Source of the DNA: Lachnospiraceae bacterium
GTDB taxonomy: Bacteria; Bacillota; Clostridia; Lachnospirales; Lachnospiraceae
Length of the DNA stretch: 64,000 nt
Assembly (NCBI GenBank): GCA_022790615.1
Contig: JAAVXK010000037.1
Location: 1 to 64,000, forward strand
Direction of reading: 5' to 3'
Within the stretch, counting starts at the first letter, position 1, and every line of letters begins with the position of its first letter. The translations under genes were made by a program, and so were the position numbers. The notes under the pieces were generated by a model, which made no database searches, was not told where the DNA came from, and saw only the letters and a program-made list of their open reading frames with translations. This document shows positions 1,405 through 62,505 of the stretch, in pieces.

Positions 1405-1539
1405 TTGAATAAAAAAGAAATCACATAGAATATAATTGAAAATAACGGCGGCATTGCAAAAACCTTAGATTTTACCGATAAAGGGATAAATAAATACGAA
1501 GTGGCAGCTTTATGTAGACAAGGAGTTTTGGCGACCTAA
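1405..1539 (+). pseudogene. Remnant of an AbiEi-like (type IV toxin-antitoxin) antitoxin N-terminal domain
   Basis: Translation LNKKEIT*NIIENNGGIAKTLDFTDKGINKYEVAALCRQGVLAT*: resembles the AbiEi N-terminal winged-helix pattern (NGG..T..D....GI.KYE...L...G.L), with an in-frame TAG and early truncation. Confidence 0.4.
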
Positions 1540-1555
1540 AATACATACAGAAAAG

Positions 1556-1622
1556 AAAATACGAATTTCCCGCAAAAGGTCAGGTATTAAAAACACTGAT
1601 TTCTACGGGAGATTCGTATTTT
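1556..1622. terminator. 17-bp stem-loop
   Basis: AAAATACGAATTTCCCG ... CGGGAGATTCGTATTTT; the single mismatch is G.U on the + strand; TTTT at the 3' side. Confidence 0.5.
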
Positions 1623-1691
1623 AAGATTCAGAGCTTAAAAATCGGTATTAACCGACAATCCCTCTCTGCAAAATGCTATATCAAAAATATT

Positions 1692-62260: not shown

Positions 62261-62286
62261 AGCGCAACGCCTTCTTTCGTTTTATT

Positions 62287-62315
62287 CTAGAGCGTGTTTG
62301 AAAATTGCTTTCTGC
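62287..62315 (+). repeat. Dispersed repeat copy 2
   Basis: CTAGAGCGTGTTTGAAAATTGCTTTCTGC. Confidence 0.9.
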
Positions 62316-62360
62316 TAGACATACATGAATATTCTTATACAATCTCAAAAACTTTATATA

Positions 62361-62494
62361 TGCCTGTATATAACAGTCATATATGGACAGGAACAGTCTT
62401 TTTGGGTGGCTGCCAATGAAAATTCTATTATTCTTATAAAGATATGCTTTTATTTTTTTTGTTCCTGCCCATACATGACCGCTATATACAGACA
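62361..62494 (-). other. 35-bp long hairpin (64-nt loop)
   Basis: Arms 62361-62395 and 62460-62494; 30/35 Watson-Crick, and all 5 others are G.U in the - strand RNA. Confidence 0.85.
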
Positions 62495-62505
62495 CATCAC
62501 AATAT

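Follow-up and report, generated by a model that had tools for sequence, protein, structure and literature searches.

The window analysed here, a stretch of 64,000 nucleotides of Lachnospiraceae DNA, carries genes of a Tad operon on its minus strand, and a long inverted repeat lies in the gap between two of them. The question raised by this locus is whether the repeat is kept for the stem that it can form in the operon transcript, as the original prediction proposed, and what such a stem would do there; an RNase III site, a stabiliser for differential expression and a folded small RNA had been suggested.

The minus-strand gene order began with a T2SSE-family (TadA-type) ATPase, a 521-aa gene without Pfam match and the DUF5702 gene. 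After the gap, it continued with a gene for a TadE-like minor pilin (hereafter tadE), a prepilin-peptidase-like gene (A24) scoring slightly below the Pfam cut-off, and two further small genes (Table 1). The gap, predicted to span about 245 nt, was exactly 245 nt long (62261-62505). Neither a sigma-70-like promoter above chance nor a minus-strand terminator was found in the DUF5702-tadE gap of the window, and co-transcription of DUF5702 and tadE was inferred from the gene order, without transcript data. An intrinsic terminator was excluded as a reading of the repeat on the grounds of its 64-nt loop and the lack of a detectable minus-strand terminator. Past its pilin signal, the TadE-like protein contained two Cys/His-rich stretches (YHxxxC and CxxC), noted by eye, which are possibly metal-binding. 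At one other locus (L066:9322-14537), genes for FliS, flagellin and a DUF6240 protein were present on the same strand directly upstream of the Tad genes.

Table 1. Positions of the hairpin and of the neighbouring features in the window.
Feature	Coordinates	Strand	Remarks
Whole hairpin	62358..62497	minus	38 pairs in operon sense: 32 Watson-Crick, 6 G.U, 0 A.C
First arm in operon RNA	62460..62497	minus	starts 8 nt past the DUF5702 stop
Second arm in operon RNA	62358..62395	minus	
Hairpin loop, 64 nt	62396..62459	minus	
Loop stretch identical in G009, 47 nt	62405..62451	minus	coordinates derived from the loop sequence
Upstream gene, DUF5702 (PF18960), 678 aa	62506..64000	minus	extends to contig position 64542
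Downstream gene, TadE-like minor pilin, 217 aa	61607..62260	minus	signal ASITVEAAL; no Pfam match
Probable tadE Shine-Dalgarno, AAGAAGG	62270..62276	minus	outside the hairpin; AAGG precedes the ATG

The arms originally reported (62361-62395 and 62460-62494) paired over 35 positions as described, with 30 Watson-Crick and five non-Watson-Crick oppositions, all five of which form G.U in RNA from the minus strand but A.C in RNA from the plus strand, and the pairing was found to extend to 62358-62395 and 62460-62497. Minus-strand RNA of the observed hairpin had a folding energy of -61.7 kcal/mol (z -12.0), matched by none of 200 shuffles, compared with only -39.6 kcal/mol (z -4.1) for plus-strand RNA. 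When arms within about 200 nt of each other were considered, it was the sole inverted repeat of 35 positions with at least 27 Watson-Crick matches in the whole window. The five wobbles alone, expected once in 32 cases for one named strand, were only suggestive; such evidence for a strand is weak, and the case for strand bias therefore rests on comparative data.

The hairpin was present as a single copy in the source assembly (85% complete), and no further copy of an arm was detected in that genome with up to three mismatches allowed, as the prediction of a structure rather than a repeat required. A MITE or dispersed repeat, which would need several copies per genome, was rejected on this basis. 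A DNA similarity search against the genome itself, 98 relatives, and 397 family and 10 genus genomes recovered the element only in G009; the remaining matches were short and mostly AT-rich, and the 17 that were retrieved and folded did not contain it. No match to the element was found in phages and plasmids. The exact loop pattern was found in G009 and in one stray match among GTDB contigs, and in a single stray match among viral contigs, the nature of both stray matches being unexamined. In G009, the element occupied the same gap with a near-identical loop, and its stem bases were changed with pairing retained. The loops shared an identical run of 47 nt, although the flanking genes were 72-74% identical in DNA and unbroken identity in the neighbouring genes reached at most 17 and 21 nt; this identity remains unexplained, with strong selection on the loop or recent exchange as candidates. 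In Rfam (release 15), no family reached its curated gathering score for 20 loci, and the window itself gave only sub-threshold matches, the best being microRNA precursor hairpins.

All ten genomes of the window's genus shared the DUF5702-gap-TadE order, and each gap contained a long stem-loop, the arms being mostly quite different. With G.U and A.C weighted equally, these stems scored 13.5-29, whereas no shuffle exceeded 12.5. The margin was narrow for three genomes with mutually similar arms (G001, G003 and G004; 13.5-14.5, with their own shuffles peaking at 10-11.5), whose stems comprised only 15-17 positions. The ten best stems together held 226 Watson-Crick pairs, 24 G.U, no A.C and two other oppositions. 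They were aligned poorly by MAFFT, and nine of them were anchored by script on CAGG/CCTG, with G006 excluded; in this arrangement, 207 of 208 cells paired, and most columns contained at least two kinds of pair.

The TadE-like protein was present in 143 of 150 sampled family genomes. The family survey covered 99 loci, including ten from the window's genus, and both gene boundaries were readable in 88. A stem score of at least 14 was reached at 79 of these 88 junctions (25 kb searched), compared with five cases in 272 kb of flanks. Two loci (L057 and L117) looked non-homologous and were dropped, so that the hairpin was observed at 77 of the 88 junctions and in about nine-tenths of the sampled genera. 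The 77 stems were 16-39 bp long (median 27, lower tenth 23) with a median loop of 104 nt, and the first arm began a median of 10 nt past the DUF5702 stop. In the other families examined, DUF5702 was often encoded closely before a TadE-like pilin without a long stem, and some short-gap members of the family also lacked the stem; this distribution suggests that the hairpin arose in the family and can be lost.

The loops of the family were enriched in AGAAAGGA and CTCTCTCC. This enrichment, together with the 47-nt run shared with G009, would suit a small RNA, or the precursor of one, that acts elsewhere and has the loop as its active part. Such a role was judged very unlikely, since the loops differ widely among genera, the gap has no promoter above chance and the hairpin always lies beside tadE. 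Often, as in L063, L099 and L109, a purine stretch AGAAAGGAG accompanied the pyrimidine stretch CTCTCTCC in the loop; the purine stretch might act as an additional ribosome-binding site to which the pyrimidine stretch could pair.

Covariation in related Tad operons, proposed as a check of the original prediction, was observed on a massive scale. In an alignment of 39 family hairpins, a helix of 29 pairs was recovered, 28 of which had double-sided changes. Pairing was possible in 96.2% of its cells, compared with 68.8% in shuffles and only 47-54% when the partner was slid, and the covariation score was 0.772 against 0.264. Strong stems and resemblance to GATGCCCTTTC were the criteria by which the 39 hairpins were picked, and trimming at the stem ends made the register easier to keep; the slide control is therefore biased toward structure, and the shuffle control ignores relatedness. 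A covariance model built from them matched 66 of 150 whole genomes, including genomes outside the training set (among them G028, G042, G055, G166, G194 and G196), and by coordinate comparison the strong matches were located just upstream of tadE. This search was run with stricter filters and missed divergent cases, the window among them (18.8 bits). A weak plus-strand match in the window (1489-1628; 16.6 bits, E 0.018), whose stem of 22 positions lies within about 1556-1622, is probably due to chance.

Over 245 genomes of the class, the model matched six, one in the family and five outside it. In the three out-of-family matches examined (L159, L160 and L161), no adjacent pilin-like gene was found by the motif used, and none was accepted as the Tad element: L160 had a short stem, and L159 and L161 carried other long inverted repeats. 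The latter two, from other Clostridia families, were MITE-like with arms of about 39-40 bp, and L161 had several arm copies.

The strand bias of the wobbles, observed in the window in only five positions, was upheld in independent samples. In the genus it was absolute (24:0 for G.U against A.C). In the family, G.U and A.C stood at 206:31 on the operon strand over three classes, with G.U in excess at 66 loci and the reverse at one, compared with 600:426 in weak chance stems of the flanks. Folding energy favoured the sense over the antisense strand in only 45 of the 77 loci, which makes energy less telling than the count of wobbles. Some G.U oppositions could arise by cytosine deamination on the non-template strand, and the terminal inverted repeats with their loop do resemble a MITE. 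On the reading as a DNA element, the repeat would be MITE-like, mediate recombination or be the palindrome bound by a transcription factor, and strand-biased mutation would have left the G.U excess. Such an element would nevertheless have to account for a single genomic copy, a fixed position across genera with unrelated arms, the excess of G.U over that in weak nearby stems, the occurrence of G.U without any A.C in the genus and the absence of plasmid or phage matches, and this reading was considered extremely improbable. The original prediction of a stem maintained at the RNA level in the operon message is thus supported by the single copy, the covariation and the wobble bias, all of them tests on sequence, and we regard it as almost certain that this is a cis-acting hairpin of Tad operon mRNA selected for base pairing in operon-sense RNA. 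The window hairpin represents an RNA element that is spread across the family and was not recovered in the Rfam searches. Its pairing is conserved rather than its sequence, and homology searches therefore miss it.

The role of the hairpin has to be inferred, and the position of the tadE start is informative here. In 43 of the 77 loci (class A), the first arm contained an in-frame tadE start, usually behind a Shine-Dalgarno sequence, often GGAGG, and the start codon with its flank GATGCCCTTTC was kept inside the stem in many genera. The first usable start lay in the loop in 18 loci, and the only starts were beyond the stem in about 16, the window included. This tally spans 79 loci, with L057 and L117 included; under a stricter reading-frame count, the tadE frame opened only beyond the stem in 10 loci. 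The genus itself was mixed, as G007 and G005 have an in-frame start in the loop. These classes rest on predicted starts rather than on established tadE start codons, and no transcript or protein data are available.

A stem that holds the tadE start in its first arm should block tadE initiation, a role that had not been among those originally suggested. For the stretch from Shine-Dalgarno to start, the median unpaired probability was predicted to be 0.07 in the full hairpin against 0.42 before the second arm, and the stretch was more open before the second arm in all 41 first-arm cases, which supports gating as the common role. In class A, the arm directly after the DUF5702 stop carries a start in the tadE frame, usually with a Shine-Dalgarno sequence, and its partner arm, about 100 nt further on, would close the duplex shortly before the mature-pilin codons. 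Initiation at tadE would then be confined to the time until the second arm is transcribed, unless a ribosome terminating on DUF5702 opens the stem, and the gate would limit the minor pilin and tie its synthesis to ongoing transcription or upstream translation. Such a kinetic window would correspond to the transcription of the roughly 100-130 nt between the arms. That the element is an undescribed family-wide cis-regulatory RNA that times or limits the minor pilin through this kinetic window remains a tentative proposal, and the duplex may be so stable that ribosomes never open it. Gating is also not universal: 16 loci have only beyond-stem starts, and the role of the hairpin may have changed. 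The window is one of these loci, and there the hairpin cannot hide the start, which is about as open (unpaired probability 0.33) as in the other beyond-stem loci (median 0.39).

Intercistronic hairpins that hide the downstream Shine-Dalgarno sequence and start are known from translational coupling. A review on the topic is available (PMC12548453). The class A loci resemble it in hiding the downstream start in a stem beside the upstream stop, and pairing of both the downstream ribosome-binding site and the start in the hairpin was seen in the 43 loci of that class but not in the window. The Tad element differs in that its stem greatly exceeds the length such control needs, its loop measures about 100 nt, and one class of loci, the window among them, has the start outside the stem.

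RNase III cuts long near-perfect duplexes of free sequence, and its sites occur in mRNA leaders and intercistronic regions. The Tad hairpin is similar to such sites in that its duplex is near-perfect, exceeds 20 bp and is free in sequence, as the family stem lengths indicate, and the 38 pairs of the window satisfy the substrate requirement of a near-perfect duplex of about two helical turns. Cleavage of this duplex to split the transcript between the cistrons was nonetheless considered unlikely: in class A the cut would part tadE from its start codon, the stems of G001, G003 and G004 are short, and cleavage data are lacking.

Selective RNA processing and stabilisation (SRPS) stem-loops have been described between the genes of Clostridium operons such as cip-cel (PMC4423207, PMC8219983, PMC10311766). 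Like these, the Tad hairpin is a stable intra-operon stem-loop located right past the upstream stop, without a U-run terminator, and its position is kept between species as its sequence changes. It differs in occurring at one site per operon with a longer near-perfect stem, in its retention at about 77 of the 88 junctions of the family, and in enclosing the downstream start in most genera. The requirement for a stable stem-loop between operon genes was met in the window by its folding energy, with co-transcription inferred as above. Under a purely processing role, the hairpin would mark the 3' end of DUF5702 or the 5' end of tadE after endonuclease cleavage, resistance to exonucleases would set the ratio of the two parts, and the hidden tadE start would be incidental. 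Operon stem-loops of Clostridium cellulolyticum act in this way (PMC4423207, PMC10311766), and the position directly past the stop codon is a steady feature that fits every start-site class, the window included. Processing alone leaves unexplained why the start codon and its flank are kept in the stem in many genera, and it was regarded as less likely than the gating reading. Our analysis suggests that for the window itself an SRPS-like role in stability or processing fits better than gating, with the hairpin perhaps setting the DUF5702:TadE ratio via mRNA processing or stability. The best explanation available, held with somewhat less than even confidence and with its mechanism inferred, is a cis-acting hairpin that commonly gates tadE translation and serves processing or stability in the window.

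In a literature search, no paper naming DUF5702 or a hairpin in Tad operons was found, and little was found on the Tad (Flp) pilus in this Clostridia family. The hairpin probably controls the amount of the second pilus protein made, by a mechanism that is inferred, and would offer a handle on Tad (Flp) pilus subunit ratios in gut-type Clostridia. Because the start lies inside the stem in one natural architecture and beyond it in the other, the mechanism can be tested by comparing the two. If it is a cis-acting RNA, kept across scores of genera, the element would be a clear example of how selection on pairing alone escapes sequence search.
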